A stretch of 64,000 nucleotides of DNA, taken from NCBI GenBank assembly GCA_028554795.2, contig JAPYKE020000270.1:823501-887500 (forward strand). Direction: 5' to 3'. This document shows, piece after piece, positions 4,480 through 34,192 of this stretch. The notes under the pieces are model-generated. The model worked only from the letters and a program-made list of their open reading frames with translations. It searched no databases and was not told the DNA's origin. Position 1 is the stretch's first letter; every line of letters begins with the position of its first letter. Source of the stretch: Sinohyriopsis cumingii. Lineage: Eukaryota; Mollusca; Bivalvia; Unionida; Unionidae. A program made the translations under genes and the position numbers.

Positions 4480-4511
4480 AAGGAGTTGTTTACAATGAAA
4501 ATTATTTACAA

Positions 4512-5186: not shown

Positions 5187-5191
5187 AAATT

Positions 5192-5715: not shown

Positions 5716-5722
5716 TAACAAC

Positions 5723-10187: not shown

Positions 10188-10535
10188 ATGAATAAATGCA
10201 AATGGTTGATGATTGGGTCGACAACCCCGTGCAATAAATCATGCAGAGGTGAATTCTGCGGGTATCATTTACAAAGCGTTCGTAATGGCTCTCTTGGCCC
10301 CCTCCCGTGCTTGGTTTGCCACGTTGGTGTAAGAGGAAAATCGCAGTTGTGTATTAATTGTGGCGGAAAGCGATACAGAGAGTTAAAGCGTTATTACGAT
10401 AAACGAATTAAAAACGCCGTCATTGACCCCACCGCCGACTCCGTCCTTGACTCAGTCAAGGACAAAATCATCAAAACTCCTCAAGACTACATTGAAAGGT
10501 TTATAATTAAACCAAATAATGAATTAGACAAGTAG
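10188..10535 (+). CDS. Cysteine-rich zinc-finger protein
   Basis: 115 residues. Two metal-binding modules are visible. The first is N-terminal (C4, C15, C19 and C24-G-x-H27, from NKCKW ... PCNKSCRGEFCGYH). The second has PCLVCHVG and LCINCGGK. A basic helix (RYRELKRYYDKRIKN) and an acidic linker follow. Similar C..C/CG.H proteins accompany helicase genes in Polinton- and transpoviron-like elements, as far as I recall. A nucleic-acid-binding regulatory or replication role is inference. It lies head-to-head with the helicase gene and 13 bp before the HNH gene. Confidence 0.6.
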   Translation: MNKCKWLMIGSTTPCNKSCRGEFCGYHLQSVRNGSLGPLPCLVCHVGVRGKSQLCINCGGKRYRELKRYYDKRIKNAVIDPTADSVLDSVKDKIIKTPQDYIERFIIKPNNELDK

Positions 10536-10548
10536 TATTATTATACAA

Positions 10549-11079
10549 ATGGACCAAGAGTTCAGACCTCACCCTGTGTTTGTTAATTACGAGACATCTC
10601 GCGACGGCATTGTTAGAAACCGCAGACTGAAGAAGCCGGTTGGATGGAAAAATAATCAGGGGTATTTGATGTTTGGTGTCGGAAAAAAGAAGTATTTTGT
10701 TCATAGGGCGGTATTTGAAGCATTTAACGGATTAATCGAGAATGGGCTTGTTATTGATCATATTAATAATAATAAGACTGATAATTCTCTTACAAACTTG
10801 CAAGCTATCTCGCAAAGTCAAAATACCAAAAAAGGGGAAACTGGTAAATACTCAAAGAAAGCAAAACCCGTAAAGTCATTTGATACAACAACTCACGAGG
10901 AAAAAATATTTCAGTCGATGAATGAGGCAGGAAAATATTTTGACATTTGTATCGCCTCAATACGAAGAGTAGCAGAACGAGTATATCAAACAGCGATCTC
11001 AAAAAAGACGAGTCACAGAATTCGATTTTCATATATAACATCAAAGGGAGATAACTCGTTTTGTGATAGCGTCGCATGA
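10549..11079 (+). CDS. HNH endonuclease with NUMOD-type C-terminus (homing-like)
   Basis: 176 residues. The HNH_3-type core is clear: VHRAVFEAFNG, then LVIDHINNNKTDN, then LTNLQAISQSQN. After a Lys-rich linker comes a NUMOD1-like DNA-binding repeat (PVKSFDTTTHEEKIFQSMNEAGKYF then a helix-turn-helix-like segment). The N-terminus fits a NUMOD4-like region. This architecture belongs to free-standing homing endonucleases of phages and large DNA viruses. It may be a selfish passenger or may help resolve or nick element DNA. ATG at 10549; AT-rich leader; downstream is the long noncoding region. Confidence 0.8.
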   Translation: MDQEFRPHPVFVNYETSRDGIVRNRRLKKPVGWKNNQGYLMFGVGKKKYFVHRAVFEAFNGLIENGLVIDHINNNKTDNSLTNLQAISQSQNTKKGETGKYSKKAKPVKSFDTTTHEEKIFQSMNEAGKYFDICIASIRRVAERVYQTAISKKTSHRIRFSYITSKGDNSFCDSVA

Positions 11080-11862
11080 CAAGAGTTACGTCCCTTGAAG
11101 TCCAATTAATGTTGCGATTAATTAATCATTTTACGATGAAAACTAATGAAATACACGCTGTTATCTAACAGCTGTATTCTTTTTTTTAATGTTTTATTTG
11201 AGTATTTGGTTTCATTTAAATGCCGTGAAACACCATTAATAAGTATTTAAGGATTCAACGATTCAAGGGAATTCAAATTAACACACACCTTGTGACTGAC
11301 GCCGCTGTATTAGTCACTTTATATATAAGATGACTCGTTATAAGCCTGGGGCTTTCGAAAGCCAATTCAACTAATCAAAACTAACCCACGCTCTTGACCC
11401 GGGCGTGTGGTTGTCTTTTGTTCACAATCATGCAACCGGGTTAATTTAATTGGGTTGCTTTTGATTGGTTGAATTGGCCGTAGAGTTCCGCCCCGCCGTT
11501 TTATGTTTGTGCTGTCTTGTGCCGTCCCCATCATCCATCAATCATTTCATTGTAAATATATTCATCCTTAATTAAGTACATGTAGTGATGTCCCCAAGCA
11601 TATCTTCTGGGCGGTCTACGATGACGTTTGTCACCCTAGGCCTCCCTCCCGGAGATGTATGTTTGGGGTTCCAAGATGTGAATGTCCTTAATTAAGTATA
11701 TATGTATGCCTGTAATCTGCCACAACACTCGAGTGGAGATTTACGGCATTATACTCCCATACAAAAAACGGGGTCAAAAATGACCCCCAATAATTTTATT
11801 AAATTTTAACTTAAATTTTATTAAAATTTTTGATATTAGAAATAAGATGTTTTATAAGAATA
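11080..11862 (+). other. Hairpin-rich noncoding region of inner element (candidate origin or structured RNA)
   Basis: The only long gene-free stretch inside the inner element, with no convincing ORF. It contains a 14-bp perfect palindrome GGCTTTCGAAAGCC (11350-11363). A 27-nt stem pairs 11361-11387 with 11452-11478, 24/27 by Watson-Crick and 26/27 if G-U pairs are allowed in the plus-strand RNA. Inside its loop are two smaller hairpins. Two further imperfect hairpins follow (about 11592-11671 and 11706-11752). Then comes a perfect 7-bp GGGGTCA/TGACCCC hairpin with a 4-nt loop (11770-11787) before an AT-only tract. TCCTTAATTAAGTA occurs twice (about 11566 and 11688). It separates the early-type genes from the late structural block, so origin, ncRNA and late control region are all possible. 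Confidence 0.6.
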
Positions 11863-12243
11863 ATGAATATCAAAGACATCAATAATATATTAACTGAGAT
11901 TTCAAAATTAAAAAATCAAGGAATTGAATTATCTGATAGTCTCGACAGTGAAAAAATATTATCCGATTATGAGATTATTAACGAACAGTCGAAACGGGGG
12001 CGTTTTACCATGGCCCGCGAGTACTTTTTTATAAAACGATTACAACATACGATTAATGAGAACCTGTACCACAATGACGCAAATGCATTCATTGGACTAT
12101 TCACTGCCGTTGAAATAATACGAAAAAAACTCGGACGTGTTTATGAACGACGCCGGGAGATTTCTAGTAAGATCAAAAACATTAGAAGGATTATAGACGA
12201 AAACTCCGTGGAGCCCCCGATGGTACACTCGGCGGAAAATTAG
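11863..12243 (+). CDS. Unknown 126-residue helical protein
   Basis: I take the ATG at 11863; the frame extends upstream only to non-ATG codons. The product is largely alpha-helical and charged (EISKLKNQGIELSDSLD, then KRLQHTINENLYHND, VEIIRKKLGRVYERRREISSKIKNIRRII), suggesting a small coiled-coil or helical-bundle protein. No family recognised. It opens the late block and is followed 24 bp later by a gene with the TTTACAAT leader motif. Confidence 0.55.
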   Translation: MNIKDINNILTEISKLKNQGIELSDSLDSEKILSDYEIINEQSKRGRFTMAREYFFIKRLQHTINENLYHNDANAFIGLFTAVEIIRKKLGRVYERRREISSKIKNIRRIIDENSVEPPMVHSAEN

Positions 12244-12267
12244 AAAATTGCGGATCAATTTACAATA

Positions 12268-13209
12268 ATGGTAGGTGAATCACTTACTACTCGGCTAGCC
12301 AGAGAGCGGCTAGCAGCGCTTAAAAAGTTTATACCGTTACGAGACAGAGTGAGAGAGAAACTTCAAACGCGACAACAAATGCAAACTGATTTTGCTGTTG
12401 GAAGCGAACAACTCTTTGCCCCGGTAACTAAAGCGACTAAGGATGTTACAGCGGCAACTGTACCCGTTCTTGGTGCGCTTGAAAACATAGCGGCAGAGAC
12501 AAAACAAACAAAAAGGTCTTTAGAAACACTCCCTGCAAAAATAGCGGCTGCTACAACACGGAGGCCACCACCACTCGCTATAACCGAACCACAAGAACCT
12601 TATGTTACAATGGCCGACGAGGAAGAATTAGGTGCTACTGCGAAAGAACCAGAAGAAGAAATACCCGAAGAAACACCCGAAGAAACATCGAAAGAAAAAA
12701 AGAAAGAGGGAAATATACCCCGTAATGTTCTTAAAAAGTCCGCAATAGATCAAATTAGAGACATCGACGACGATGAAGAATTAGTTAATTTTGTTGCTAC
12801 AACATCAACTAAGAGCATTCGAGATGAGTATATCAATGAAGGTTACAAGAAAAAAATAACCTCGACGGAGAACTGGGCAAGAATAGTGTATTTAGCGAGC
12901 AAACATAGAGAAGCATTACCACATCGTGGTGATCCCGATTACGATAAATTCCTCGAGAAAGTTAAGAGTAGAACACCAAAAAAAGGAAAAGGATACCCTG
13001 TTGGTAAAGAATCCTACGGCGTTACCTGCCCTAATAGTGTTCTCAGTGATATATCACGGCTGGAAGTACTAATTGGAGGAAAACGAGCCGGAAATAACTC
13101 TACGGAAATAATCAATAAGGCCGCTGCTTTTTGCAAGCGGTTATTTGCAGGCGGTATTATGGACATTAATGCATATCGAACGCTCATAGACGAACTCGTG
13201 GATGATTAA
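12268..13209 (+). CDS. Conserved-looking adintovirus-type protein of unknown function
   Basis: 313 residues. Basic N-terminal helix, a central acidic low-complexity region (repeated EEIPEETPEETSKE), and a globular C-terminus ending in a helical module (RLEVLIGGKRAGNNSTEIINKAAAFCKRLFAGGIMDINAYRTL). I recall a similar LIGS.KAGN...LKNE... C-terminus in uncharacterised proteins of animal adintovirus-like elements, usually beside capsid genes. A structural or scaffolding role is inference. TTTACAAT lies at 12259-12266, 2 bp before the ATG. Confidence 0.55.
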   Translation: MVGESLTTRLARERLAALKKFIPLRDRVREKLQTRQQMQTDFAVGSEQLFAPVTKATKDVTAATVPVLGALENIAAETKQTKRSLETLPAKIAAATTRRPPPLAITEPQEPYVTMADEEELGATAKEPEEEIPEETPEETSKEKKKEGNIPRNVLKKSAIDQIRDIDDDEELVNFVATTSTKSIRDEYINEGYKKKITSTENWARIVYLASKHREALPHRGDPDYDKFLEKVKSRTPKKGKGYPVGKESYGVTCPNSVLSDISRLEVLIGGKRAGNNSTEIINKAAAFCKRLFAGGIMDINAYRTLIDELVDD

Positions 13210-13235
13210 TTGGAAAACTGGTGTTTTTAATAAGG

Positions 13236-13730
13236 ATGATCATACACTACAACCATGATAAACCAGTACTCGTCTACGTGGTAAACTCGCGATTGCCTGT
13301 TTACCGCGCGTACTATGGAGATGGTCTCGGTAGCACCATTGCGGGGTTATTTACAAGAATGGCTCCAAAAGTAGCGCCGTTAGCCAAACAATTAGGAATG
13401 AAGGCTATTGATGTTATTCGTGATAAGGGTATTAGTGCCATTGGAGATGTTGCCGGAAGGGCGTTTTCTGCCGCGCGAGACAAACTAATGTCGTTGGTGA
13501 AATCTAAGAGAAAAAAACAGAAACCACCGGTAATGCCATCAACGACAGTGATGCCTGCAAATGTCAGTAAAGTAATAAATAACGCCGTGGAAGAAAAATT
13601 AGAGTCGTTGGCGACGACTCAGTCGTTGGCGACTTCGCCATCCGCCGATGCGGCAACCAACGCGCTCATGAACGCGATAGCGGGGAGTGGTTTAAATTCA
13701 AAGAATTTACGACGAAAAAATCGCAATTGA
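13236..13730 (+). CDS. pVI-like internal capsid protein of the inner element
   Basis: 164 residues from the ATG at 13236; the frame extends back to a GTG at 13221. The N-terminal part contains YYGDGLGSTIAGLFTRMAPKVAPLAKQLG, a Gly-rich amphipathic segment equivalent to the one in the outer element's pVI-like protein. Basic KSKRKKQK and an Ala/Ser-rich tail follow. It sits directly before the MCP (10-bp gap), as in the outer element. By analogy with adenovirus pVI it would line the capsid interior and disrupt membranes on entry; this is family inference. Confidence 0.6.
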   Translation: MIIHYNHDKPVLVYVVNSRLPVYRAYYGDGLGSTIAGLFTRMAPKVAPLAKQLGMKAIDVIRDKGISAIGDVAGRAFSAARDKLMSLVKSKRKKQKPPVMPSTTVMPANVSKVINNAVEEKLESLATTQSLATSPSADAATNALMNAIAGSGLNSKNLRRKNRN

Positions 13731-13740
13731 AAACATCAAC

Positions 13741-15180
13741 ATGATAAATAATAGAATGTTTGCGCGTACCGCTGATCCCGCGTTTGATATGGATGCCCCA
13801 GTGCGCAGGGATGATTCTGTCCGTGATTATCAATATTATTCTTATTATGCAGCGCAACCTGACCTACGATCGCGAATTGAACTTCAAGTCCAAGATACCA
13901 GTAAATACTTTCTGCCGTGTGAAGCGTTTATCGAAATTGAGGGAGAACTTGTAACAAATGCTGCCGATAATGCACCATACGCAGATGACCCTCGTGTTCG
14001 AGTTGGTTTCGTCAACAACGGTATCATGGCGTTATTTGAGAGCGCTAGATATCTTATTGACGGGCGAGAAATTGAATCAATAGAACGCGAGGTTGATGTT
14101 GCAACGACGATAATTGGGTTGGCGAGATACTCGGATGATTATACAAGATCGGCGGGCCCATCTATAATGTTCGCAAAGGACTCCACCGATAACGCTGACC
14201 ATCTTCAGTACATCAACGTGCTGGTGGAAAGAGATACCGCAACTAACCCACAGGCTGAAGCAAATAACCCAGACCGCAGAGCAAGACCAGGCGATAATTT
14301 CAATATTATAAAAAGTACTAACGATAATTTTAATCTAGGATTTGCAACACGAGTAGGAATGTTGCAAGGACCACGCCGAAAGTTTTCATGCGCGATTCCA
14401 CTCCATCACATATTTGGATTCTGCAGAAATGTCAGGAAGGTTATCTATGGGGCTAAGCATACAATCGCGCTGACGCGAAGAGGTGATGATAACAATGCAA
14501 TATGGCGTGCTGCTGGCGTCGCTGCCGGTAAAGTCATTTTAACTAAAATGGCATTGTGGATGCCGGTGCTGACTCCATCAGTTACCACGGAAGCACGATT
14601 GTTAGCATTTATGGAACAGGGAGGGAAATCGCTGTTGAGTTGGCTAGCGGTAACAACTGATGCTAAAGAGGATAACGTCGCCGATACGTTTACATGGCAC
14701 CTAGCATCAAAACAGGGTGTTTCAGCCCCGCGTCATATATTCATAGCGCTACAGAATAGGAATCGATTGGGTAATCAAGAACACAGCCATATGATATTTG
14801 ATCAATTAGGAGTCAGGGATGTTTCGCTGAGAATAAACGGACAACAGGAACCATCCGAGGATATACAGCTTAATTACGGTGACAACCATATCGCACGTGT
14901 GTATCATCGATTGCTGTCGTATATGGGTCGTGATCAAAACGTCGACACTGGTTTGCAAATATCACAACTTGATTTTAAAAACCGGTATCCGATTTATTAT
15001 TTTTCGCTGGAACATCTTGATTTAACGAGACAATCCGTCGTTGATATACACTTCCGAGCTCGTATAGCCCCGGGTGGTGATTATAGAGCGGTTGCTGTCA
15101 TTCTCAGCGATAAATCAATGCTGCTAGAAGGTGTTGGTGGACGAATGAGAATCGTTGATGCGCCAGTGGAAAACATGTAA
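13741..15180 (+). CDS. Double-jelly-roll major capsid protein of the inner element
   Basis: 479 residues, intact. N-terminal strands include YFLPCEAFIEIEGELV. A middle signature, FSCAIPLHHIFGFCRNVRKVIYGAKHTIALTRR, is typical of adintovirus-like MCPs in animal genomes. The C-terminal half carries RHIFIALQNRNR, LRINGQQEP and HLDLTRQSVVDIHFRARIA. It forms trimeric pseudo-hexameric capsomers in the family. The sequence is clearly different from the outer element's F54H12.2-like MCP, so the two elements are distinct lineages and not copies of each other. Preceded by TTGAAAACATCAAC. Confidence 0.85.
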   Translation: MINNRMFARTADPAFDMDAPVRRDDSVRDYQYYSYYAAQPDLRSRIELQVQDTSKYFLPCEAFIEIEGELVTNAADNAPYADDPRVRVGFVNNGIMALFESARYLIDGREIESIEREVDVATTIIGLARYSDDYTRSAGPSIMFAKDSTDNADHLQYINVLVERDTATNPQAEANNPDRRARPGDNFNIIKSTNDNFNLGFATRVGMLQGPRRKFSCAIPLHHIFGFCRNVRKVIYGAKHTIALTRRGDDNNAIWRAAGVAAGKVILTKMALWMPVLTPSVTTEARLLAFMEQGGKSLLSWLAVTTDAKEDNVADTFTWHLASKQGVSAPRHIFIALQNRNRLGNQEHSHMIFDQLGVRDVSLRINGQQEPSEDIQLNYGDNHIARVYHRLLSYMGRDQNVDTGLQISQLDFKNRYPIYYFSLEHLDLTRQSVVDIHFRARIAPGGDYRAVAVILSDKSMLLEGVGGRMRIVDAPVENM

Positions 15181-15208
15181 TTGAAAACACAAACGCGTTT
15201 ACAATAAA

Positions 15209-15685
15209 ATGTCGTATAGTGTCGTCAGTGTAGAGTTGACTGATGGTCAAGTCAAGAAATTACGATCAAAGTCGGCTAAACAATGCGGGACCACAATAAC
15301 GCTGAAGCCGTCGCAGATGGCGGGTGGTAATCATAAGATATCGTTGACGGCGCGTCAAATAAAACATTTCAATAATGCGATGAAGAATAAAAAGGGTGTT
15401 CAAATAGATTTTTCAGCCGCAGCAATTAAAAACATGGAAAAGACCGGTGGGATATTTCCGCTGTTAGCTGCGATTCCAGCGTTGATTGCCGCGGCCGCAC
15501 CAGCAGTGGCTAAGGCGGCGGCGTTAGGAGCCGTTGGTACCGCGGCGGGAATGGCATTGAAGAAGGCAACCGGGAAAGGCTACAAAAAAAAACGACCCGT
15601 GGCCGGAAAGGGTCTAAGACTACCGAGAACCCCGTATTCATGGTACTCGGGGAAGGGTCTAAGACTACCGGGAACCGTTTATTGA
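15209..15685 (+). CDS. Adintovirus pX-like hydrophobic/basic core protein
   Basis: 158 residues. The first half is a beta-type domain (VELTDGQVKKLRSKSAKQ, ITLKPSQMAGGNHKISLTARQIKHF). A long Ala/Gly/Leu hydrophobic stretch follows (about residues 78-115), then a Lys-rich tail. It ends with two copies of GKGLRLP, encoded by a short tandem duplication at about 15606-15670. This LT..Q...L / KI...LT..Q / GG(F/I)LP order is common in animal adintoviruses next to the protease gene. Probably a minor core or membrane-active component. TTTACAAT lies at 15198-15205 just before the ATG. Confidence 0.6.
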   Translation: MSYSVVSVELTDGQVKKLRSKSAKQCGTTITLKPSQMAGGNHKISLTARQIKHFNNAMKNKKGVQIDFSAAAIKNMEKTGGIFPLLAAIPALIAAAAPAVAKAAALGAVGTAAGMALKKATGKGYKKKRPVAGKGLRLPRTPYSWYSGKGLRLPGTVY

Positions 15686-15690
15686 CTCCA

Positions 15691-16148
15691 ATGTCTAATT
15701 TTGATTTAATAGACGCCGCAAACGCGCTAGCGATAAAAACTTCAGAGGTGTTTTTATGAGGGATCAATTACCGGCGGCCCCAAGGAATACTGAAACAGGC
15801 ATAATTAACCTCGATGGGTCCTCCGGAGCGGGGACTCATTGGGTTGCATACGCGATTGACCCGCGTGCAATCGTCTATTTTGATTCATACGGGTTAGCCC
15901 CGCCGAAAGAGTTCATGCGGTATGTCCGGGCGTGTTCAGCCCGGGCGTGTTCAGCCCCGGTTTTTTATTCCACGCTACCAACACAGCAATTGAGTGACCC
16001 ACCGATATGCGGCCGTGAAGTATTAAACGTACTTGCGGCGATTTCATCATCGCGGAAACCACCTCATGTGGTTGTAAACGAATACACTAGTGGGGTCGTA
16101 GAAGCTCAACGGATTTTAGAGAATAACATTTACAATAATAATGATTGA
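15691..16148 (+). CDS. Adenovirus-type maturation protease, with -1 frame break near the N-terminus
   Basis: Cysteine protease that matures capsid proteins. The catalytic His is in SGAGTHWVAY, an acidic residue in VYFDSYG, and the Cys in DPPICGREVLN with an upstream Gln. The 5' 22 codons (ATG 15691) end at TGA 15757-15759. The family's usual N-terminal sequence continues in the -1 frame, which has an ATG at 15756 overlapping that TGA. The switch falls at the A5 run 15735-15739. Initiation at 15756 would lose the N-terminal helix. A 15-bp tandem duplication (about 15926-15956) adds five residues between Asp and Cys. The end overlaps the fibre gene by 8 bp. Confidence 0.75.
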
Positions 16149-17172
16149 TATTTGGGGACGACCGGTTTCGGCGCTGAAAAAGCCCACGGAAACGGCCGCC
16201 ACCGATGACATAAAAAAACTAATTGAGGATGAAATCGCTGATACGTTGAATTTAACAAGTGTTGACCCAGGCGAAATAGTTGTATTTCAAGACCGCCAGG
16301 GTAAATTGAAATCCAGTAATGTGTCGCTGGATGACGTTTTAATACGACAGCGTGATGCCGCCGAGGACGCTATCGCGTTGTATACCGGCGACGGACGACT
16401 TAAATCAGGTGAATCCATCTTGACGATAAATGGAAAAATAAGTACACTTGGCAACAATTATATATCCGTGTCGGATTCGTTAAAAAATACTATTTCGGAG
16501 TTTACAACGCTGTCGGGTCAATTTCACACGTTGCGAAAAAATTTTAACAGGGCTGATAACGCCATTAATAAATTCTTTGGTAAAAAAAATACCAAACCGG
16601 AAGAAATTACAATAACTATAAATGATATCACTGCGTATGGACAGGAAATAGTAACGCTCAAAACCGAGGTTGAAGCGAATACATATGAAATAGAAACGAT
16701 CAAAACTTATATTGTAGCAAACAAAAAGGATGTAGACGCGCATACACAGGAAATAAATACACTCAAAACTTATATAGGCGCGGATACAGGGGAAATAGGA
16801 ACACTCATTACTAATGTTGAAGCGATTAAAGACAAACTACCGAGAATGACAGAGCAACTCGAAAAAATAAGAATCCATCATGAGAAAACCATCAGCACGG
16901 TATACACAATTCAGCATGGATTTTTAGATTGGACTCCTACGAATAATACAGTAGATATCACCGCAACTGTTTGGGGTATTTATCGATTGACATTGATTTC
17001 AAATGCGAAGTTCAATATATCATCGCCGAATTCAACCGGGTTTAACAATGCAATATCAACAATCATTAACAAGAATGCAACCGAACGGTTTATAATTTAT
17101 GCCGTTGATAGTAATATATTTAGGGCAAACATCACATGGTATGTGGAATTTGTAGCGAATCTAAGTAATTAA
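16141..17172 (+). CDS. Fibre-like coiled-coil attachment protein (putative)
   Basis: 343 residues. A short conserved-looking N-terminus (MIDIWGRPV) could be the capsid-anchoring peptide. Residues about 150-235 form heptad-like repeats, with three or four tandem units of the type EI.TLKTY(I/V).A(N/D)(T/K), then a helical segment. The last 75 residues are beta-rich and Asn-rich (WTPTNNTVDITATVWGIYRLTLISN to the end), resembling a C-terminal head. Shaft plus head architecture and location among capsid genes suggest a vertex fibre contacting the penton-like protein. The function is inference. TTTACAAT is at 16129-16136, inside the end of the protease gene. Confidence 0.55.
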   Translation: MIDIWGRPVSALKKPTETAATDDIKKLIEDEIADTLNLTSVDPGEIVVFQDRQGKLKSSNVSLDDVLIRQRDAAEDAIALYTGDGRLKSGESILTINGKISTLGNNYISVSDSLKNTISEFTTLSGQFHTLRKNFNRADNAINKFFGKKNTKPEEITITINDITAYGQEIVTLKTEVEANTYEIETIKTYIVANKKDVDAHTQEINTLKTYIGADTGEIGTLITNVEAIKDKLPRMTEQLEKIRIHHEKTISTVYTIQHGFLDWTPTNNTVDITATVWGIYRLTLISNAKFNISSPNSTGFNNAISTIINKNATERFIIYAVDSNIFRANITWYVEFVANLSN

Positions 17173-17197
17173 AAACACTAGCTCTTTTAAAATAAAA

Positions 17198-17734
17198 ATG
17201 ACCACCAAGGAAATTGAATCAGAGGTATCACCGACGTCACATCAATATCGATTCGATACCGCAAAAGAATTCTCCGCGAACTTGAAAACGCTTTCCGAAC
17301 AATACCGTGCAAAAATTAAAAAATACCGCAGAAAAATAACCGCCATCGACGCGGTCGTGTACTCGGTGTCGGGTATAGTGGCCGGTACCGGCGTCGTTTT
17401 ATCCACGGTGACCACGATAGCCCCGATCGCTGTTCCAATCGCTGTCTCCGCGATGACAACAGTTGCTGCAGTCGCCAACGCAATCACTAGAAAGATATCA
17501 TCGTGTTTTCAGAAAAAACTCAACGAGTATACAGTAAAACATCAAATAGTATCCGACGCGTACTCGAAATTATCCGGGTTGATCTCGTTGTCAATTGATA
17601 ATTTGTTCGTATCCGATGTTGAATTCTCCACGATGGTCCAGTTGTATAGCTCCGCGATGTCAAAAATCGAGGATTTTCAACTGGAAGCCGGAACCACCTG
17701 GTTGTTGAAATTAGACACTAAAGACAACGAATAA
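17198..17734 (+). CDS. Membrane protein of unknown function
   Basis: 178 residues. A basic helix (YRAKIKKYRRKIT) is followed by a long hydrophobic Val/Ala/Ile-rich region (about residues 50-95) able to form two membrane helices, then a soluble helical tail. The leader is TTAAAAACACTAGCTC, similar to other late-gene leaders here. It lies between fibre-like and penton-like genes with 5 bp to the latter. A virion membrane or entry role is possible, but nothing in the sequence fixes it. Confidence 0.5.
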   Translation: MTTKEIESEVSPTSHQYRFDTAKEFSANLKTLSEQYRAKIKKYRRKITAIDAVVYSVSGIVAGTGVVLSTVTTIAPIAVPIAVSAMTTVAAVANAITRKISSCFQKKLNEYTVKHQIVSDAYSKLSGLISLSIDNLFVSDVEFSTMVQLYSSAMSKIEDFQLEAGTTWLLKLDTKDNE

Positions 17735-17739
17735 TAATA

Positions 17740-19050
17740 ATGTCGCAGAACCCCGAAGGGTTTCAATTACTTCAGCGGATCGCGGAGAACACCACTCCGG
17801 TACAAACAAATATGATATCAATAACGTCAACGAAACCCGAATTCAGTGTGAACTTCCCATCGCCGGTTCCAGTAAAGGAAATAGCGCTGGCAAAATTGCG
17901 AGTATATCACAGTTGGCCTAATATTCGAGCGAACGCATTTAACGGACAACAACCTAATAACTCGCTGGTTTTTGCATGGACAAATAAACCCGATGGGACC
18001 CCAGACTGGAATGAGGTTACAATACCAACTGGGTCATACCAAATAGAACAAATCAATAAAGAATTTCAACGCAGGATAAAATCGATCACAGGAAAAGAAT
18101 CAAAAATCGCTATTACGGTTCATGAACCGACGTTATCGTCGACGATTGAAATAAGCACACCGGGGTATATGGTTGATATTTATAACAGTTCAATAAGAAC
18201 CATACTAGGATGGCCTAAGAATCCACCCGAGGACTTGCACACGAATGAGAAATCGTATCATGAAATTATTACCAGTTATCAAGATGATTTGTCTATTATA
18301 AAAAACACGTTATTACCCAGTTGGTTTATATTTCAAGACAGGAATACCATGCAGTGGTATTTTCAGTATAAGGAAACTCCTGAATCGCACGTCATATTAA
18401 CAGTTAATTTAAATGATATCAATAGTTTTTTTATCGAGATTAATCGTAATTACCAATTGCAACTAGAACAACTACGGAAAACAAAAGCACGAAAACACGT
18501 TGAGGTGTTAAATCAACTTATATCAGACATGGAATATATCAATGAACGAATCGTTAAAATAATATCCGCTAACAGCGATGATAATAAACAAAAATTCCTA
18601 ACCGAGTATAATATCACAGAAGCCGATTTACCCGATTTCAAGTTTCCAGGATACAACGCGCCAGAACTAAGAAAGTCTCTTAATGATGTTCTCGGTCCAT
18701 CAACTATCCTCAAACACGATAACGGAGATGGTGGTAGGCATATTGCTCCATACAACGTAAATATTGCATCGGTGATAGCGATTAATCTAGTGTGTGATGT
18801 TATCGAAGGGAGTTACCAGGTAGATACCAAGCAATCAAATCAAGCTCAACAGGGATATATCCTTTATTCGTTTTCACCAACAGCCCCTCCGGGATTTTTA
18901 ATCGTTGAGAGTCCGATTAATCCGGTCTATATGCGATGCCATGATCGGTTTTTAACGAGAATTAATTTTAAACTCACCGATCAGTCAAATAACCTAATTG
19001 ATCTACAGGAGGAGGAGTTAGTGATCACTCTGTTTGTAAGATCATTGTAA
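17740..19050 (+). CDS. Penton-like minor capsid protein of the inner element
   Basis: 436 residues. The N-terminal strands (NMISITSTKPEFSVNFPSPVPVKEIALAKLRVYHSWPNI) and the end (HDRFLTRINFKLTDQSNNLIDLQEEELVITLFVRSL) match the adintovirus single-jelly-roll penton type. An unusually long insert (about residues 190-300) contains a helical Gln/Lys-rich coiled-coil stretch. The stop TAA (19048-19050) runs into the first base of the right terminal repeat. So the last gene fills the element to its edge and its 3' end or poly(A) site must lie within the repeat or beyond. Confidence 0.7.
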   Translation: MSQNPEGFQLLQRIAENTTPVQTNMISITSTKPEFSVNFPSPVPVKEIALAKLRVYHSWPNIRANAFNGQQPNNSLVFAWTNKPDGTPDWNEVTIPTGSYQIEQINKEFQRRIKSITGKESKIAITVHEPTLSSTIEISTPGYMVDIYNSSIRTILGWPKNPPEDLHTNEKSYHEIITSYQDDLSIIKNTLLPSWFIFQDRNTMQWYFQYKETPESHVILTVNLNDINSFFIEINRNYQLQLEQLRKTKARKHVEVLNQLISDMEYINERIVKIISANSDDNKQKFLTEYNITEADLPDFKFPGYNAPELRKSLNDVLGPSTILKHDNGDGGRHIAPYNVNIASVIAINLVCDVIEGSYQVDTKQSNQAQQGYILYSFSPTAPPGFLIVESPINPVYMRCHDRFLTRINFKLTDQSNNLIDLQEEELVITLFVRSL

Positions 19051-19288
19051 GCAGCAGAGGGGGCGACGACATCGACGCGGTCGTCGATGTGCTTACCGGA
19101 CGCTGACGACGCTGGGGATCGACGCGCAGAAGGTGTTAATTAAACCAAATGACGACGCGACGATCCCCCAACGACGTCGTCGTTTTTTTTTTACCAGGCG
19201 CTGACGACACTAGATCGTTGAGTGCAGAAAGTATTAATTAAGCAAAATAACGATTGGACAAAATGTCCGATTCGCCCCCTCTGCTGCT
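19050..19288 (-). repeat. Right terminal inverted repeat of inner element (239 bp)
   Basis: Reverse complement of 4241-4479 except for two adjacent bases at the centre. There it carries a GACGTC core in place of the left repeat's GAATTC; both form the middle of a 10-bp palindrome. It is bracketed by the same 17-bp inverted repeat (19050-19066 and 19272-19288). Confidence 0.93.
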
Positions 19289-19293
19289 CCAAG
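19289..19293. repeat. Target site duplication CCAAG, right copy
   Basis: Directly follows the right terminal repeat and matches 4236-4240. Confidence 0.85.
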
Positions 19294-19760
19294 GACAGTT
19301 ACCCAAACGTTTCATCGTTGGTATTGTCGAGAATACAGCCTTCAACGGAGCTGCCGAAAAAAATCCTTTCTACTTTCAACACTTTGGCGTGTCCAAGATC
19401 GAAGTCAGTCGCGATGGCAAGACCTTGTGTACCAGACCTTTCGAACCTGACTTTGCCAAGAAGAATTACTTGAGATCGTACTTGTCCCTGTACGAAGCCA
19501 CCGGACAGTTAGGAACCAACACCAGTCACGGCATTACGTACGAGGATTATGCAGGAGGCTATGCTTTGTGGGCTTTTGATTTCACTCCAGACCAAGGCAG
19601 CGACAAGGGACATTTCCACCCTACAAAATCCGGCCAGATTCGTGTGGAAATTCAGTTTAAAAACCGAAACCCTGATGAAACGGTGAACGTCATCCTGTAT
19701 GCAGAATTCGATAATACGATAGAAATCAACAGTTTGAGAGAAGTCATCCTAGATTATTAG
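19289..19760 (+). pseudogene. Outer-element major capsid protein, 3' part
   Basis: The C-terminal 157 codons (including stop) of the F54H12.2-like double-jelly-roll MCP begun at 3394. Segments LPKRFIVGIVENTAFNG, KNPFYFQHFGVSKIEV, YLSLYEATGQ and the final TIEINSLREV are family hallmarks. The frame is open and in phase with the 5' part once one CCAAG is counted. An ATG at 19263, inside the inner terminal repeat, is in frame with it. The C-terminal half could therefore be translated separately if transcribed. No further lesions. Confidence 0.9.
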
Positions 19761-20063: not shown

Positions 20064-20100
20064 GGGGGATGTTTTCCTTCACGTCCGCGCTTTGACTTTA
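20064..20100 (+). promoter_or_regulatory. Shared upstream motif, copy 1
   Basis: GGGGGATGTTTTCCTTCACG followed by TCCGCGCTTT, 63 bp before the ATG of the small gene at 20156. The same block precedes the other two cassettes. A TTTAAG stands where copies 2 and 3 have TATAA. Confidence 0.6.
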
Positions 20101-20155: not shown

Positions 20156-20533
20156 ATGTGTTCCAAACTAGCTAAGCTCAACGAAGCCTACGTGAATTTG
20201 CATAGGGTCAGACACAGTCTGATACCGAAGCCAGAAGAAATAGAGAATGTGAGAATGTTAAAAATCACTGAAGACCTGACAGAAGAGCTTTTCAGAGAAG
20301 AAATGAACAGGGAGAAAGAAGAATGGACAGAGAAGTACAGACTTCAGAGACAGCATCAACAGCAGCAACAACAACAACAGCAGCAACAAGAACCTGAAGC
20401 TGACAGAGGCTTTGTCGATTGTCGTATCGACACCAAAGAGTTCTTCTTCTCTTTCCGAAGAAGCAGACCTATCGCCAGAAAGTCTATCCTCAGAGGACAT
20501 CGCATTCTTAGAAACTCAAAAAGAATGCCATAG
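20156..20533 (+). CDS. Small charged helical protein with polyglutamine run (cassette A)
   Basis: 125 residues from the ATG at 20156. Helical N-terminus (KLAKLNEAYVNLHRVRHSL), an acidic/basic coiled-coil-like middle (ITEDLTEELFREEMNREKEEWTEKYRLQRQHQ), a run of about a dozen Gln, then a basic, Arg-rich C-terminus. No family recognised. It is the first of three genes in the right arm of the outer element with the same layout: motif at 20064, small protein rich in charged helices with a basic tail, and a histone-like hairpin 17 nt after the stop. A basic, possibly DNA- or nucleus-associated protein made in S phase is an inference from the 3' end. Confidence 0.6.
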   Translation: MCSKLAKLNEAYVNLHRVRHSLIPKPEEIENVRMLKITEDLTEELFREEMNREKEEWTEKYRLQRQHQQQQQQQQQQQEPEADRGFVDCRIDTKEFFFSFRRSRPIARKSILRGHRILRNSKRMP

Positions 20534-20550: not shown

Positions 20551-20590
20551 AGCCCTTTTCAGGGCTACCCAATACTCTAGAAAAGAAATA
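20551..20590 (+). promoter_or_regulatory. Histone-type 3' stem-loop, copy 1
   Basis: AGCCCTTTTCAGGGCT (20551-20566): 6-bp stem, 4-nt TTTC loop, followed by ACCCA. A purine-rich AAAAGAAAT starts 14 nt after the stem, where a histone downstream element lies. It begins 17 nt after the stop codon. This matches the replication-dependent histone mRNA 3' end (6-bp stem, UUUC-type loop, ACCCA flank, U7-binding purine box). A backup AATAAA is at 20631-20636. Confidence 0.7.
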
Positions 20591-20636
20591 ACGATCGATT
20601 TGCCAATGTGTGTAGGTAGAGTAGTGTGAAAATAAA

Positions 20637-20942
20637 CATTAACTCTTTTTAAAAAAAATGTGAGGGTATGTGTTTGTGAGTTTGTGTGTTTGTAAGTGAT
20701 CAAGTAAGTTGGTGTGGAGAGTAGATTAAAATGATGTCTTTATTTGGTGTTTGAGGTGTATATTTGGAGTTAGATTGGATTCCTTTGTGTATGTGGATAG
20801 TCTATTGAAGTGATTTACAAAAAATTTTAAAATAGTGATGGGTGGCATAAAAAAAGTGAGTAAGTGTTTCTTTTAGGCCCGCACGTTGTTGTTTTTTTTT
20901 TTTTTTGGTCATGATCTAGGTAAGATCAATTTTATGTTTTTA
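20637..20942 (+). other. Intergenic spacer between cassettes A and B
   Basis: GT/T-rich spacer with no gene. Near its end a block at about 20908-20940 (GGTCATGATCTAGGTAAGAT and onward, containing a GATCT/AGATC hairpin) is repeated at 22331-22365 ahead of cassette C. It therefore belongs to a conserved cassette leader. Confidence 0.5.
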
Positions 20943-20981
20943 GGGGGATGTTTTCCTTCACGTACGCGCTTTCACTATAAA
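20943..20981 (+). promoter_or_regulatory. Shared upstream motif, copy 2, with TATA box
   Basis: Same GGGGGATGTTTTCCTTCACG...CGCGCTTT block as at 20064 and 22366. A TATAAA at 20976-20981 follows directly. The gene starts at 21033, leaving a leader of about 25-50 nt. Confidence 0.65.
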
Positions 20982-21032
20982 TTGAAACTCGTTCGGCAGT
21001 CTAGCTACCCTTGTTGATTGATCAACACAAGA

Positions 21033-21344
21033 ATGAATAGTAGCAGAATAAGCAAACTTCTTGAACTCCAGATACATCTGGAATATGTCAGGCGCCTGGT
21101 AAATGAACTGGCTGCGGAGGCTATAATAGAAGAAGAAAGAATAAAGAAGGAAGAGGAGGAGAGAAGACAGAGGGAAGAGGAGGAAAAGAAAAGAGAAGAG
21201 AGGATGTCGTTCAATATTCCCGAGACAGAGGATTGGGGTGCTGAAGCGAATCATCCTCCCTCTTCGGCCCCCAGAAGAAAGGTGAAAGGAGACTGGGGAA
21301 GAAGATGCGTGTGTGGCGCCAGGCCAGGAAGGTGCAATCATTAG
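21033..21344 (+). CDS. Small charged coiled-coil protein (cassette B)
   Basis: 103 residues. N-terminal leucine-rich helix (ISKLLELQIHLEYVRRLVNELAAEA), then a long Glu/Lys/Arg coiled coil (EEERIKKEEEERRQREEEEKKREE). The tail contains RRCVCGARPGRCNH, a possible Cys/His metal site. No family recognised. Same promoter block and same 3' hairpin as cassettes A and C, so the three are probably ancient duplicates or a co-regulated set. The hairpin starts 28 nt after the stop. Confidence 0.6.
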   Translation: MNSSRISKLLELQIHLEYVRRLVNELAAEAIIEEERIKKEEEERRQREEEEKKREERMSFNIPETEDWGAEANHPPSSAPRRKVKGDWGRRCVCGARPGRCNH

Positions 21345-21372
21345 ATAGTTGCATCTGGAGTTAAAAAAAAAC

Positions 21373-21412
21373 AGCCCTTTTCAGGGCTACCCAATAATCT
21401 AGAAAAGAAATA
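21373..21412 (+). promoter_or_regulatory. Histone-type 3' stem-loop, copy 2
   Basis: AGCCCTTTTCAGGGCT (21373-21388) followed by ACCCA and, 14 nt later, AAAAGAAAT. About 100 bp downstream of the hairpin is also close to copy 1 (GATTTGCCAATGTGTG... AATAAA at 21455-21460). A-rich sequence precedes the stem as in histone genes. Confidence 0.7.
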
Positions 21413-21534
21413 ACTATCGATTTGCCAATGTGTGTGTAGGTAGAGTAGTGTGAAAATAAACACTAACTCTTTTTTAAGATAGTGTGAGGGTATGTGTTTG
21501 TGTGTTTGTGCTTGTAAGAGCTAAGGTATGTTTG

Positions 21535-22255
21535 TGTGAATAGTAGATTATGGGTTACTTTATTGTTTCTTAGCGTATGTGAAGAGTATAGATAGGGTTT
21601 TGTAAGCGCTCACGTACGATTGTGTGGATAGTAGATTATGGATTTGTTTATTGTTTCTTAGCGTAAGTGTTTGTGTGTTTGTGTTTGTGTGTTTGTGTTT
21701 GTACCCGCTCACGTACGATTGTGTGAATAGTAGATTATGGATTTGTTTATTGTTCTTAGCGTATGTGGAGAGTATAGTTTGGGTTTTGTAACCGCTCACG
21801 TGCGATTGTGTGGATAGTAGATTATGGATTTGTTTATTGTTTCTTAGCGTATGTGTTTGTGTGTTTGTGTTTGTGTGTTTGTGTTTGTACCCGCTCACGT
21901 ACGATTGTGTGAATAGTAGATTATGGATTTGTTTATTGTTTCTTAGCGTATGTGAAGAGTATAGTTAGTGTTTTGTAAGCGCTCACGTAAGATTGTGTGG
22001 ATAGTAGATTATGGATTTGTTTATTGTTTCTTAGCGTATGTGGAGAGTATAGTTTGGGTTTTGTAAGCGCTCACGTAAGATTGTGTGGATAGTAGATTAT
22101 GGATTTTGTTTATTGTTTCTTAGCGTATGTGGAGTTTATAGTTTGGGTTTTGTAAGCGCTCACATAAGATTGTGTGGATAGTAGATTATGGATTTTGTTT
22201 ATTGTTTCTTAGCGTATGTGGAGAGTATAGTTTGGGTTTTTATTATATGAAATGA
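21535..22255 (+). repeat. Eight-copy 88-bp minisatellite
   Basis: The phrase TAGATTATGG recurs at 21544, 21632, 21731, 21818, 21917, 22005, 22093 and 22182. Spacings are 88, 99, 87, 99, 88, 88 and 89. The two 99-bp units carry an expanded TTTGTGTG tract. Most units contain GCTCACGTACG or GCTCACGTAAG, similar to the TTCACGTACGCGC core of the cassette promoters. No genes. The region fills the space between cassettes B and C. Confidence 0.85.
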
Positions 22256-22296
22256 GAAAGAATAGTTTGGGTTTTATTATATGAAATGAAAAAGTA

Positions 22297-22404
22297 GGGG
22301 GATGTTTTCCTTCACGTCCGCGCGTTGTTTGGTCATGATCTAGGTAAGATCAATTTTATGTTTTAGGGGGATGTTTTCCTTCACGTACGCGCTTTAAGTA
22401 TAAG
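22297..22404 (+). promoter_or_regulatory. Shared upstream motif, copies 3 and 4, before cassette C
   Basis: The motif occurs twice: at 22297-22324 (a copy without a following TATA or gene) and at 22366-22395, followed by TATAAG at 22399-22404. The segment between them repeats the 20908-20942 block. The gene starts at 22456. Confidence 0.6.
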
Positions 22405-22455
22405 AACCCACAGTATTCGTCGTTCAAACCATTCTGCAAAGAATAAAAAAAGAAG

Positions 22456-22841
22456 ATGGCTTCTAACCAAATGGACAAAATACAAACATTACAAGACGTT
22501 TTAGACAACTTAGGAATGATGGAGCAGATGTTAATAAGACTGGTTAAAGACCATTATTCCTATAGTCCCCATCGTGTAAAGATGGAAATTAATAACTTAA
22601 AAAGGTAAAGGACAAGATTAGTGGTGTCATGAAAGAGATAAAGGAGGAGAAGGAGGATGAAGAGGAAAGAATAAGAATAAGCAAATGGAACGAAAAGATT
22701 GAAAAAGAAGAAGAAAATGAGAAGAGGAAGAAAGAAGAGGAGGAAGAGAAGAAGAAAGAAGAGCAGGAGAAAAAGAAAGAGAAGAAGAGAAAGAGTGTTG
22801 GAGATAAAATAAGAACTTGGTGGAGAAAAAGAAGAAATTAG
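22456..22841 (+). CDS. Small charged coiled-coil protein (cassette C), with -1 frame break
   Basis: The first 50 codons (ATG 22456, TAA 22606-22608) encode a hydrophobic/acidic helix (IQTLQDVLDNLGMMEQMLIRLVKDH). The -1 frame continues from the A5 run (22599-22603) with a long Glu/Lys/Arg coiled coil ending WWRKRRN, stop at 22839-22841. The -1 frame is closed by TAA at 22593-22595, so the switch must fall within 22596-22608. Programmed slippage, a mutation, or an assembly error in the A-run are all possible. Cassette context (motif upstream, hairpin 25 nt after the stop) shows it is one gene. Confidence 0.55.
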
Positions 22842-22866
22842 AAGCAGAAGAAGAAGAAAACCCAAA

Positions 22867-22906
22867 GACCCTTTTCAGGGCCAGCCATATTTCTCGAAAA
22901 GAGATA
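22867..22906 (+). promoter_or_regulatory. Histone-type 3' stem-loop, copy 3 (diverged)
   Basis: GACCCTTTTCAGGGCC (22867-22882): TTTC loop kept, stem with one A-C mismatch, preceded by CCCAAA and followed by AGCCA. A purine-rich CGAAAAGAGAT follows after about 13 nt. The CCAAA-type 5' flank is the form usual in animal histone genes. Confidence 0.6.
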
Positions 22907-22975
22907 GCCTTTCAATTGCCTACCCCTTTTTTTAAAAAATTTAAAAAAAAAAAAATCCCATGTTCAATTTCCCTT

Positions 22976-23170
22976 GACGCTATAAAGTCCCACCCTGTTT
23001 AAATTCCTTTGACGCTAAACCGTCCCACGATTTTTCTCCATGTTAGTTTCCCTTCACGCTAGATTGTCCCACGATTTTTCTCCATGTTAATTTTCCATTG
23101 ACGCTAGAGTGTCCCGGGTGGTTTTGTAATGCTAATTCCCATTGACGCTAAGGTATCCCCATTCACTACT
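22976..23170 (+). repeat. Subterminal tandem repeats at the right end of the outer element
   Basis: Five diverged units with core TT(G/C)ACGCTA...GTCCCA, starting near 22976, 23011, 23054, 23100 and 23144 (35-46 bp apart). The last unit runs to the inferred terminus at 23170 (CACTACT). Such repeats inside terminal inverted repeats are common in Polintons. The matching left repeat is outside the window. The 22907-22975 stretch is an A/T run with no feature. Confidence 0.65.
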
Positions 23171-23747
23171 GTTGGCTCTATAGCTGAAACAACAAACTGT
23201 ACATTCAAATTTTTTACGTATTTCGCATTGCGTTACAAAGAAAAACTGCATTTAAAGTGAATCCTCTATCCAGTTTCCATTTATAAGAAATAGGCTAAAG
23301 GACAGATAGCATCATTTTGTATCAAAATTAAATGGAAAAGTGAGAGTCACCACCTTGCACATAATTAAATTATGCATCTGAGGTTAACACATTTCTTCAT
23401 TATCTTAACGTGCATAGCAGGGTGAACATCTAGAAACCCAAAGGATATAATATTTTAACATTGTAGAAGCTTTTAAAGCAGATATAATATAGGTTTTACA
23501 TTCAATGCCCGCATTTATATCGCAATGAATTCGAAAAAGCAGGTCACCAAATGCTTGAGCTTAACATGCTTCGAGAGGCATATTTAACATTTACGGAATA
23601 CATCGACCTCATTTAAATATTCATGGTATGTAAGAAACTAAATACTAGATGTACAAAAAATACTCGTTCTCTCCTGTCACACTATCACAGATGACTTTGG
23701 AGTGATAACATTACCGGTAATGATAGTAATCCTCATCTTCATTATCC

Positions 23748-31333: not shown

Positions 31334-34192
31334 AGATGTAATAATCATACGCGAAATGCAGTAATAGTGAGTTGTCGATCGTAGACTATATCTTTTGACT
31401 GAATCTGTATTGGATTTTACATGTGCGTGCTTGCTCGAGCACGTGTGAATGTGAAGAAAGATATGAGATTGAAGCAAAGATAAAGAGAGAAAAATGTAAA
31501 TTAGTTTATCTTCCCATCTTGTGCGTTCGCGCTAGTGGGTCAAGCGTGAACGAGGCTCAGAGAGAACACTATACTGAGAGTGAGATTAAAATAACAGTAA
31601 GTTGATATTTCGAGTGTGCATATCTGTTTATACATCAATATTGTGAAGTCTCATAATATGATTTGTGTACACCCCAACTTTGAGATGAGAGTAGTAAACA
31701 TGTTATTCCTCATTTATAAAAAATACCGTACAATCTTAGAATAAAATACAGTTTATCCTAATATTGGCATGTAAACATGTGGGAAACATACACTCAACTC
31801 AATCATTTAGACATATCAAAGTTGATACGTGAATACGACATATGCTTGGACATCTCAGCGTCGTTGGGTACTTATGTCATCCAGGACTTTTTGATGATGT
31901 TGCGTCAGTAAGTTATCTTTGATACATTTGCATACAGAGGATAGAAAATCAGTGATGTCGTTTGACAGGACAGTTGCTTTCATTTCATAGTAAGACCTAC
32001 TTAAGATATAATGATTTCTGTGTTTGAACTTTGAACTTTTTGGTCATTGTTCACATGAACCTAAGTCCTAAATCTAGATATTTCCTTTCCTTAATACTTC
32101 TTCAGACATTACTAAAATATCTGCAAAATCAGCACCCTGAAAATATGTACTATTTTGAGATATCAGATACTTTTTTAAAAGTAAGCATGAAGTTATAATT
32201 GTTGACATCATTGGATCACACTGAAATATTAAAATGGTATTAGCATGTTTTTAGTAATCATCATAAATGTTTCAGTGCCCATGTTGACTTATACAAGGTT
32301 TAGTGAATAATTTAGGTGTAAATATGAGAAGCCAAGTCTGTTAAGTTGGTTCAGTTACTTAATACTTTATAGTCATAGAATAATACGAATAAGGTTCAGT
32401 CAACATTTCGCAATATTGCGTTTATTAATTTGTGTTATCTTTCCTTGCCTTATTAAGTTTTGACGAAAATATGCAATTGCTAACTGAACCGTCTGAAAGT
32501 AATTATTTAAAACTGAATCACATCAGTTAGGAATTAATATGTGCTGAGTTTTAATTCATCTTCAATTTACTTTAAAGCATTTTCTTCTTTGGCTCTGTCC
32601 CGTATACAAAACATAACTCTAATTGTTATTATTCCTTATTTCTACTCTAGGACGTTTTATTTAGATTAGTTGTGTCTATTCAAATATAGTTACAAGTGCA
32701 ACCATTTCAATCTATTATATGATTCGTATGTCTACGCGAGAAACATTTGTTTGGGTAAAATACGAACAGGGTGATTCTACGAGTAGCCTGCAATCTGAGA
32801 AAATTCATATCGAAATCCATCAGAAATTCATTATACTGAAAGTAAATAGAGGCGTGTTCATGAGAGAGAGGGGTACCATCATTTGGGGTTTGGTTTCTTA
32901 CCTATATTCTAGGATAGCCACATGTTATTCCTTGCTAACATGTTGCATATAGATTATTAGTTCTTGTTCAACAAAAGAGAAAAAAATTAGATTGTCAAAC
33001 CTATTAAGAATTATTTTTCACATAGTCGCCCCATGTATTTTTAAGAGCTTTGTCATTGTTTTTTTTTCCAAAACAAATTAAACTTATAGACAGCAAGAAT
33101 TAACACCTAACCCTATGCATTGTACATCTTCATAGCTCATGATCACACTCCGAGTCCCGTTTTGCAGCTACATCTGTCATTATGGAGAAATGTATAAGTC
33201 AGTTGGTTATCGTTCAAGTTATAAAGCCGATTGTTGTTATATAATTTGATATCTCTAAAAGCATTTCATAATTACTCGATTTTGACATTCGACACAATGT
33301 CTTGTTATGTTAGTCACATGTTTCTTTTTAATACACGCAATATGAAACCTCGTTAAACAGTTCAATATCATCCTCCGTCTGTCATTTCCATCACAAATGC
33401 AATATTTGACCGTATTAATTAAAACTGGTTTGTTAGCTGTCTTTGCTACACGAAACGTATTTCAACATAAAAGTTCTGGCATAATACACATGCTGACAAA
33501 TTTTAATTCCATAAATGATATTGTATCCCGAATATCATGGTCCAGAAATGCTCTTTCAATATGACATTCTTGGGGACATCATACAAAATATCTAATAAAT
33601 CTCAGTAGCGTCTCTTTGTCAAAAATAATTGCATTTTTATTTTATATCAATATTTATGATTGCCTTTCAAATTGTATAAGCGAGGGAATTTCGAGATTAA
33701 TCTTCTCTTTCGTGATATGGGGCAATTAATTTCATGTATAATCTATTTAACATTTCGATGAAATAAATATCTTCATCTACAACTATATCACACTGTTATC
33801 TTGAATGTACATGATGACAGTAATTTGCAAAGGTTTGTTAGAAATCATAAAGGCGGCTCAAGATGCGCGTGCATTGAAGTGTGGGTATTTGCGAACATAA
33901 TCGTGGCGTCCGTGAAAAAAACTCATAATTTAGTATAATCCTTTCCCGTTGTATCTTTTGTACCGTTCTTTGTTGTGCTTTGTTGCTACACACGAATGCA
34001 TATAACACCGCTGGAGTGACATCATTTTAGGTCATGTGAAATTAGTCGTGAGGGAATATGGCCTCGTGTTTGCAGGCAAGGCGAAGGATGCCGTTTACCC
34101 GCGAACCTGTGTTCGAATCTCCATACATTACGAATAAAAATGTCTCCAACCTTTATGATAGTATTATTTGTATTAAAAAACATATATGAATG
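31078..34192. other. Host intergenic, no gene seen
   Basis: AT-rich sequence with an ATT microsatellite at about 31270-31332. Scattered short ORFs show no domain or splice context. I see nothing else supportable. Confidence 0.4.

Follow-up and report, generated by a model that had tools for sequence, protein, structure and literature searches.

Histone-type mRNA ends are regarded as a mark of replication-dependent histone genes. For histone transcripts, SLBP and the U7 small nuclear ribonucleoprotein (snRNP) have been described to bring about cleavage after the stem, and the tail-less mRNA is translated in S phase (PMC5706932). Here we describe ends of this type, together with a histone-type promoter box, on small terminal genes of a transposable element in the bivalve Sinohyriopsis cumingii. 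The locus lies in a window of 64,000 nucleotides (JAPYKE020000270.1, hereafter C270, positions 823501 to 887500) of a 2.9-Gb genome. The element is a decayed Polinton/Maverick, and we call it the outer element because a second, inner one is inserted in it.

Histone stem-loops have been met in Polinton-like genomes before. Six histone 3' untranslated region stem-loops were counted among the noncoding RNAs of Polinton-like virus and virophage genomes, none of them in the cryptophyte elements (PMC12220804). Our locus shares with that record the presence of Rfam-type histone stem-loops in a Polinton-like genome; it differs in that the section concerned gives their number only, without position, gene, host comparison, purine box, promoter or function. 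The first-pass annotation of the window, made from the sequence alone, knew of no description of such ends in Polintons. This has to be narrowed, since isolated Rfam stem-loops had already been counted. Among the open-access papers listed by the other literature searches, no title or abstract opening dealt with histone-type ends in Polintons. What appears to be new is that the ends match those of the host's histone genes, that a promoter box is shared with some of these genes and that the ends are so numerous in the genome.

Compared with the replication-dependent histone mRNA 3' end (Rfam family Histone3, RF00032), the ends of the element have the same six-base-pair stem, TTTC or TTTT loop, A-rich 5' flank and ACCCA-like 3' flank. 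They also share the sequence and spacing of the host-type purine box and a short distance from stop codon to stem. The differences are that the element genes encode small coiled-coil proteins and not histones, that the copies are very many and dispersed, and that copy 3 is mismatched at stem pair 2.

The three hairpins match the 3' ends of the host's histone genes

Three small genes in the right arm of the outer element each end in a hairpin that RF00032 matches (Table 1), at 17, 28 and 25 nt past the stop codon of genes 1, 2 and 3, as the first-pass annotation had proposed. Copies 1 and 2 share the layout AGCCCT-TTTC-AGGGCT, a 10-nt gap and then CTAGAAAAGAA. In stem-loop 3, which sits on the inner edge of the right terminal inverted repeat, pair 2 is an A.C mismatch and the other five positions are paired. 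The 3' flank is ACCCA after stems 1 and 2 and AGCCA after stem 3, and GAAAAGA begins 13 nt past the stem in all three copies, close to the 14 nt or so first estimated for the purine box. A Histone3 scan of the whole window at E-values up to 1 returned these three hairpins and no other place; the E-values given for them in Table 1 are from 4.5 kb. A simple feature score gives copies 1 and 2 the full 17 of 17 points, the best of 100 simulated 128-kb sequences reaching 15. Copy 3 scores 14, a level that simulations also attain, and is therefore not significant on this score alone.

The host histone genes lie in tandem units of ~8.3 kb, many of them on small contigs (e.g., C531). The named matches of the H1 protein include Mytilus, Saccostrea and Crassostrea, which points to a bivalve. 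The two stretches read (L070 and L071) show one layout of stem, gap and box at the end of all five histone genes, and the stop-to-stem distance is 27 to 38 nt. The loop type, the 10-nt gap and the purine box CTAGAAAAGA are common to copies 1 and 2 and host H3, H4 and H2B, the box being identical in sequence. As to the host stem, for which AGCCCT/AGGGCT and GGCTCT/AGAGCC had been weighed against each other, H3, H4, H2B and H2A all have GGCCCT/AGGGCC; the core is that of the element's stem, and GGCTCT/AGAGCC was not the form found.

A covariance model made solely from the host H3, H4, H2B, H2A and H1 ends (filters off; its E-values are rough) gave the window hairpins E-values of 7e-10 to 9e-6, and the runner-up on both strands of the 64 kb scored 16.6 bits (E 0.67). 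The first-pass annotation had staked its reading on such a model, and the model recognizes all three hairpins (scores in Table 1). To the left of the window, in the stretch L038, it found two further ends, at L038:2135-2183 (plus strand, 50.0 bits) and L038:1048-1096 (minus strand, 45.4 bits), and elsewhere nothing above 16.6 bits. The original count of three genes was thus right for the window and too low for the element: this copy has five ends, one at each inverted repeat, one after the left-hand gene and those of genes 1 and 2. A six-pair stem with a four-nt TTT[CAT] loop is present in copies 1 and 2 and in both copies left of the window, and not fully in copy 3.

The right-arm genes share a promoter box with host H2B and H1

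A repeat, GATGTTTTCNNTCACGTNCGCGC, precedes genes 1 to 3 and also the host H2B and H1 genes. Its four occurrences in the window, starting at 20068, 20947, 22301 and 22370, read GATGTTTTCCTTCACGT[C/A]CGCGC, and pairs of boxes ~70 nt apart recur in other copies of the element. The host H2B box GATGTTTTCCATCACGTCCGCGC (L070:2592) and the H1 box GATGTTTTCAATCACGTCCGCGC (L070:5994) have 0 mismatches to the shared motif, in which one place is N and was chosen after the element copies had been seen; the two host boxes agree with each other in all but 1 of 24 places. Upstream of H2A there is a weaker, inverted form with 4 mismatches, and H4 has a form with 6 mismatches, which is at chance level; no box was seen before host H3. 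In 20 simulated 64-kb sequences, the best match to the motif had 4 mismatches and occurred once.

Like the host H2B and H1 promoters, the element genes have a GATGTTTTC..TCACGTCCGCGC box in front of the start codon, and like the H2B promoter they have a TATA-like box after it, 29 nt from the motif start in all three window genes (TTTAAG in gene 1 only). They differ from these promoters in that the box sits on the right-arm genes of an element. The motif has 37,481 matches genome-wide, and a reversed control has 0. In the stretch of C1 covered by the listed hairpins, a same-strand hairpin lies 250 to 1000 nt downstream of 50 of the 63 listed boxes, where neighboring boxes can share one hairpin; the same pairing was found 0 times with the strands flipped and, with random placement, 0.76 times on average and at most 4 times. 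Since the promoter box is common with H2B and H1 and the 3' ends are of the histone type, the right-arm genes bear, as far as can be read from their sequence, histone-type signals at both ends. For the sequence signals, the earlier reading of the 3' ends is thus supported, and it now takes in the promoter too.

The box resembles the vertebrate H4 site II, or H4 box. An H4 box similar to H4 site II has been described in H1.0 promoters (PMC6027317), and HiNF-P has been described as needed for the recruitment of NPAT to H4 promoters (PMC5706932). Our guess is that HiNF-P might bind the promoter box of the element.

Histone-type ends are spread across the host genome

The pattern CCCTTTTNAGGGNNA, followed by 12 free places and GAAAAG, occurs 50,951 times in the genome (25,209 + 25,742) and 0 times when read backwards. 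The count includes the host histone genes, which number at least 150 (150 histone matches were scored of 662 candidates). Of 589,472 first-look candidates, 75 Histone3 matches in the genome were scored, all above the gathering score, and 56 of these 75 were fetched. All 56 are copies of the element, with at least 150 nt in common with it, and 55 of them have AAAAG at the equal place, 14 nt past the stem. Their stems are GGCCCT/AGGGCC in 50 cases; 3 others have a T-G pair and 3 a C.A mismatch at pair 4. By the nearest upstream gene, the fetched copies fall into four classes of 26, 10, 10 and 9, with 1 unassigned copy for which only 205 nt upstream were available; the gene of the largest class is an open frame adjoining the left inverted repeat.

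On C1, the 100 listed positions often form clusters of an outward end, 1.1 kb, a second end, 13 to 18 kb, and two or three right-arm ends, which is the order expected of one element. At five ends per element, the 50,951 ends would correspond to some 10,000 elements in the genome, as an order of magnitude. The 75 listed Histone3 matches and the listed histone matches have no place in common. Because all 56 fetched matches of these 75 are element copies, Rfam Histone3 scans of such genomes should be used with caution, as they count transposons.

These numbers bear on the simplest doubt, namely, that short GC stems around a T-rich loop arise by chance in AT-rich, repeat-rich DNA. Simulated sequence does reach the simple feature score of copy 3, and all three hairpins score below the Rfam gathering score. 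Against this stand the E-values of the host-histone model, with their clear gap to the rest of the window, and the 50,951 genome matches versus none for the reversed pattern, which already refute chance; we give it a vanishingly small probability.

Predicted processing, alternatives and origin

What could a transposon gain from a histone mRNA end? The small terminal genes of this decayed Polinton carry host-type histone 3' signals, joined in the right arm by the promoter box, and in our reading, which we consider highly probable, they are most likely processed by SLBP and U7 and expressed in S phase. Transcription of the right-arm genes would start from a box of the host H2B/H1 promoter type, and host SLBP and U7 snRNP would cut the transcripts 3' of the hairpin. 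The products would be short mRNAs lacking poly(A), and both their synthesis and their translation would fall in S phase, which would offer the best conditions for DNA replication.

The hairpins could instead be inert relics of a captured histone-gene 3' sequence that hitchhike with the element, with the transcripts polyadenylated at a downstream AATAAA. Such a signal is present 65 nt past hairpin 1 (at 20631) and 67 nt past hairpin 2 (at 21455). A single host gene, H2B, is the closest match for 60 of 61 element ends, and high copy number alone is able to spread neutral sequence. Neutral drift fits poorly with copy 3, which over 73 nt shares just 63% identity with copy 1 yet retains the stem core, the loop, the spacing and GAAAAGA. 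Pair 1 points the same way: copies 1 and 2 have A-U there, copy 3 and the 56 fetched genome copies have G-C, and both sides have thus changed. Several genes of one element bear the end, the three in the window at 17 to 28 nt past the stop, and the start signal of the right-arm genes is histone-like as well. We therefore regard the relic explanation as improbable.

A signal acting at the DNA level, in replication initiation, integration or packaging for example, seems less probable still. The copies at 22867 and L038:1090 do sit on the inner edges of the inverted repeats, as such a signal might. The other three of the five hairpins lie outside the repeats, each past a stop codon in gene orientation, and the purine box and its spacing match host mRNA ends. 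Moreover, the other Polinton-like element in the window lacks such a hairpin; with nothing above 15.1 bits in the host-histone model, it serves as an internal control.

Several results weigh against processing by SLBP and U7, or against its generality. Poly(A) ends are possible for genes 1 and 2, and the AATAAA downstream of these copies may serve as a back-up or mark the true end. The Rfam scan of the window at the gathering threshold (34 bits) was empty, all three hairpins scoring below it. In this copy the stop codon of the left-hand gene is 72 nt before the stem. Among the 63 listed promoter boxes, 13 have no match to the hairpin pattern in range, and two left-side gene classes have the hairpin and no promoter box in the DNA examined; from the 20 kb left of the window, the box is absent at up to 6 mismatches. 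A family search for host SLBP gave no match, but its controls were equally without match, so it is uninformative. We did not identify a host U7: the best RF00066 match in the genome scores 29.3 bits, below the cut-off. Finally, the capsid relatives L001 to L006 described below lack the ends: L001 to L005 have no Histone3 match at E-values up to 5, and L001 to L006 have nothing above 16.2 bits in the host-histone model, an absence that is partial because some of these contigs hold little DNA past the capsid gene.

The 29.3-bit match was rejected as a candidate for the host U7 and taken to be spurious, since its 5' end is not complementary to CTAGAAAAGA. With a loosely defined U7 pattern, there were 175 matches in the genome and 15 for the control. 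Most of the 100 matches listed belong to one dispersed repeat with TCTTTTCCAAATTTGTCTGG (e.g., C1:38044290-38044309), which is like a U7 Sm site beside a complement of the purine box.

From which gene might the signals have come? In a comparison over 58 nt, the host gene nearest to the element 3' end was H2B for 60 of 61 ends; H2B also has the promoter box, and capture from an H2B-like gene would be the simplest history. The five ends of this copy have 40 to 46 of 58 letters in common with the nearest host gene, the maximum for 20,000 random 58-mers of the window being 33. The host's own H3 and H2B ends are equally alike (45 of 58), and for this reason the comparison hints only weakly at H2B.

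A wider proposal, to which we would give about an even chance, is that a Polinton lineage took over both the histone promoter box and histone 3' processing, probably from an H2B-like gene. The genes of its accessory proteins would then be surrogate histone genes, and the ~50,000 ends may be competitors for SLBP and U7 snRNP, with consequences for the supply of histones. More generally, a DNA virus-like transposon with such ends and a histone promoter box would have a direct way to couple viral gene expression to S phase, and would amount to a natural experiment in what turns a gene into a histone gene. It makes it possible to test Polinton expression in cycling cells, visits to the histone locus body and the tax that the extra ends put on SLBP and U7.

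The outer element and its relatives

Like Polintons/Mavericks with an F54H12.2-like capsid gene, the outer element has PolB, an A32-type ATPase, an integrase with a chromodomain, a capsid gene and terminal inverted repeats. PolB (PF03175) is matched at L038:4562-5953 with an E-value of 4.6e-28, and a Pox_A32-type ATPase in L038 with an E-value of 6.6e-8 over a short stretch. In the broken frames at 411-1622, the chromodomain (Chromo) has an E-value of 8.4e-8 and the integrase (rve) one of 2.8e-5, with 24.7 bits, below its cut-off of 32.6. The capsid gene matches no Pfam family, and its named relatives are mostly F54H12.2-like (Mercenaria, Ostrea, Crassostrea and Lineus); in place of a hairpin, it is followed by an AATAAA 169 nt past the stop. 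Within the right terminal inverted repeat, 22964-23131 consists of four 44-nt repeats with TTGACGCTA / GTCCCAC.

Among the right-arm genes, the gene 1 protein has 10 homologues in other assemblies, with 66 to 78% identity, and related open frames for gene 3 are present in other copies in the genome. A tandem array with an 88/186-nt unit lies between genes 2 and 3, at 21493-22240.

Table 1. Features of the right arm of the outer element and 3' ends of the host histone genes (positions are those of the window)
Feature	Positions	Strand	Details
Histone-promoter-type box of gene 1	20068..20090	+	GATGTTTTCCTTCACGTCCGCGC; 0 mismatches to motif common with H2B/H1 promoters
Gene 1	20156..20533	+	125-aa basic/coiled-coil protein; no Pfam family above cut-off
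Stem-loop 1	20551-20566	+	AGCCCT-TTTC-AGGGCT, six pairs; RF00032 31.0 bits, E 4.5e-6; host-histone model 52.7 bits
Purine box 1 (histone downstream element type)	20577..20591	+	CTAGAAAAGAAATAA; CTAGAAAAGA is the host H3, H4 and H2B box; 10-nt gap after stem
Histone-promoter-type box of gene 2	20947..20969	+	TATA-like box 29 nt from box start
Gene 2	21033..21344	+	103-aa charged coiled-coil protein
Stem-loop 2	21373-21388	+	AGCCCT-TTTC-AGGGCT, six pairs; RF00032 31.1 bits, E 4.1e-6; host-histone model 55.2 bits
Purine box 2	21399..21413	+	CTAGAAAAGAAATAA
Additional promoter box	22301..22323	+	69 nt before gene 3 box
Histone-promoter-type box of gene 3	22370..22392	+	
Gene 3	22456..22841	+	Coiled-coil protein; frame broken in window copy
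Right terminal inverted repeat, outer element	22858..23171	.	314-nt alignment, 95%, inverted copy at C270:814289-814599 left of window
Stem-loop 3	22867-22882	+	GACCCT-TTTC-AGGGCC; RF00032 25.3 bits, E 5.7e-4; host-histone model 37.6 bits
Purine box 3	22893..22907	+	CTCGAAAAGAGATAG
Host H3 3' end			GGCCCT-TTTT-AGGGCC, 10-nt gap, CTAGAAAAGAG
Host H4 3' end			Stem as H3; box CTAGAAAAGAT
Host H2B 3' end			GGCCCT-TTTC-AGGGCC; box CTAGAAAAGAT
Host H2A 3' end			GGCCCT-TTTA-AGGGCC; box CCCGAAAAGGA, one nt further out
Host H1 3' end			GGTCCT-TTTC-AGGACC; box CTAGAAAAGAT, one nt further out

Distant capsid relatives, with 29 to 47% capsid identity, are found in six contigs of bacterial metagenome-assembled genomes (L001 to L006). 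These Polinton capsid genes lie in assemblies that are GTDB species representatives (Escarpia and Bathymodiolus symbionts, Breoghania and others), and the contigs are probably animal DNA in bacterial bins. The gene set of L001, from an Escarpia symbiont assembly, is similar to that of the outer element when read by eye. The outer element differs from the readable relatives in having histone-type ends, of which they show none. The expectation that related elements would have the hairpins thus held for copies across the host genome and failed for the six distant relatives from other hosts; because the hairpins were not found in the latter, histone-type ends may be lineage-specific. In L003, about 0.4 kb past the capsid gene, there is a Twister-P1-like match (11734-11798, 28.9 bits), below the gathering score.

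In viral contigs, the exact hairpin pattern and the capsid piece each had 0 matches. None was confirmed among the pattern matches of the capsid alignment (36), the minor-capsid-like protein (5) or the small-protein alignment (147). Searches by tblastn with the gene 1 protein and the capsid piece against phages, and with the capsid piece against plasmids, gave no match.

The inner element and other features of the window

The inner Polinton-like element, ~15 kb long at 4231-19298, interrupts the capsid gene of the outer element. Its inverted repeats, of 249 nt each (4231-4479 and 19050-19298), are 98% complementary. It encodes an A32-type ATPase, an integrase, a 1162-aa protein with an SF1 helicase domain and a double-jelly-roll capsid protein, and it has a weak match to an adenovirus protease; no PolB match was present among the open reading frames scanned.

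The opposite strand gave Rfam matches to sbrA, which were discounted as being off-family. Farther to the right, 34185-35021 is a long TATG/ATGTATGGT tandem array, which triggers the mir-297 matches seen below the cut-off.

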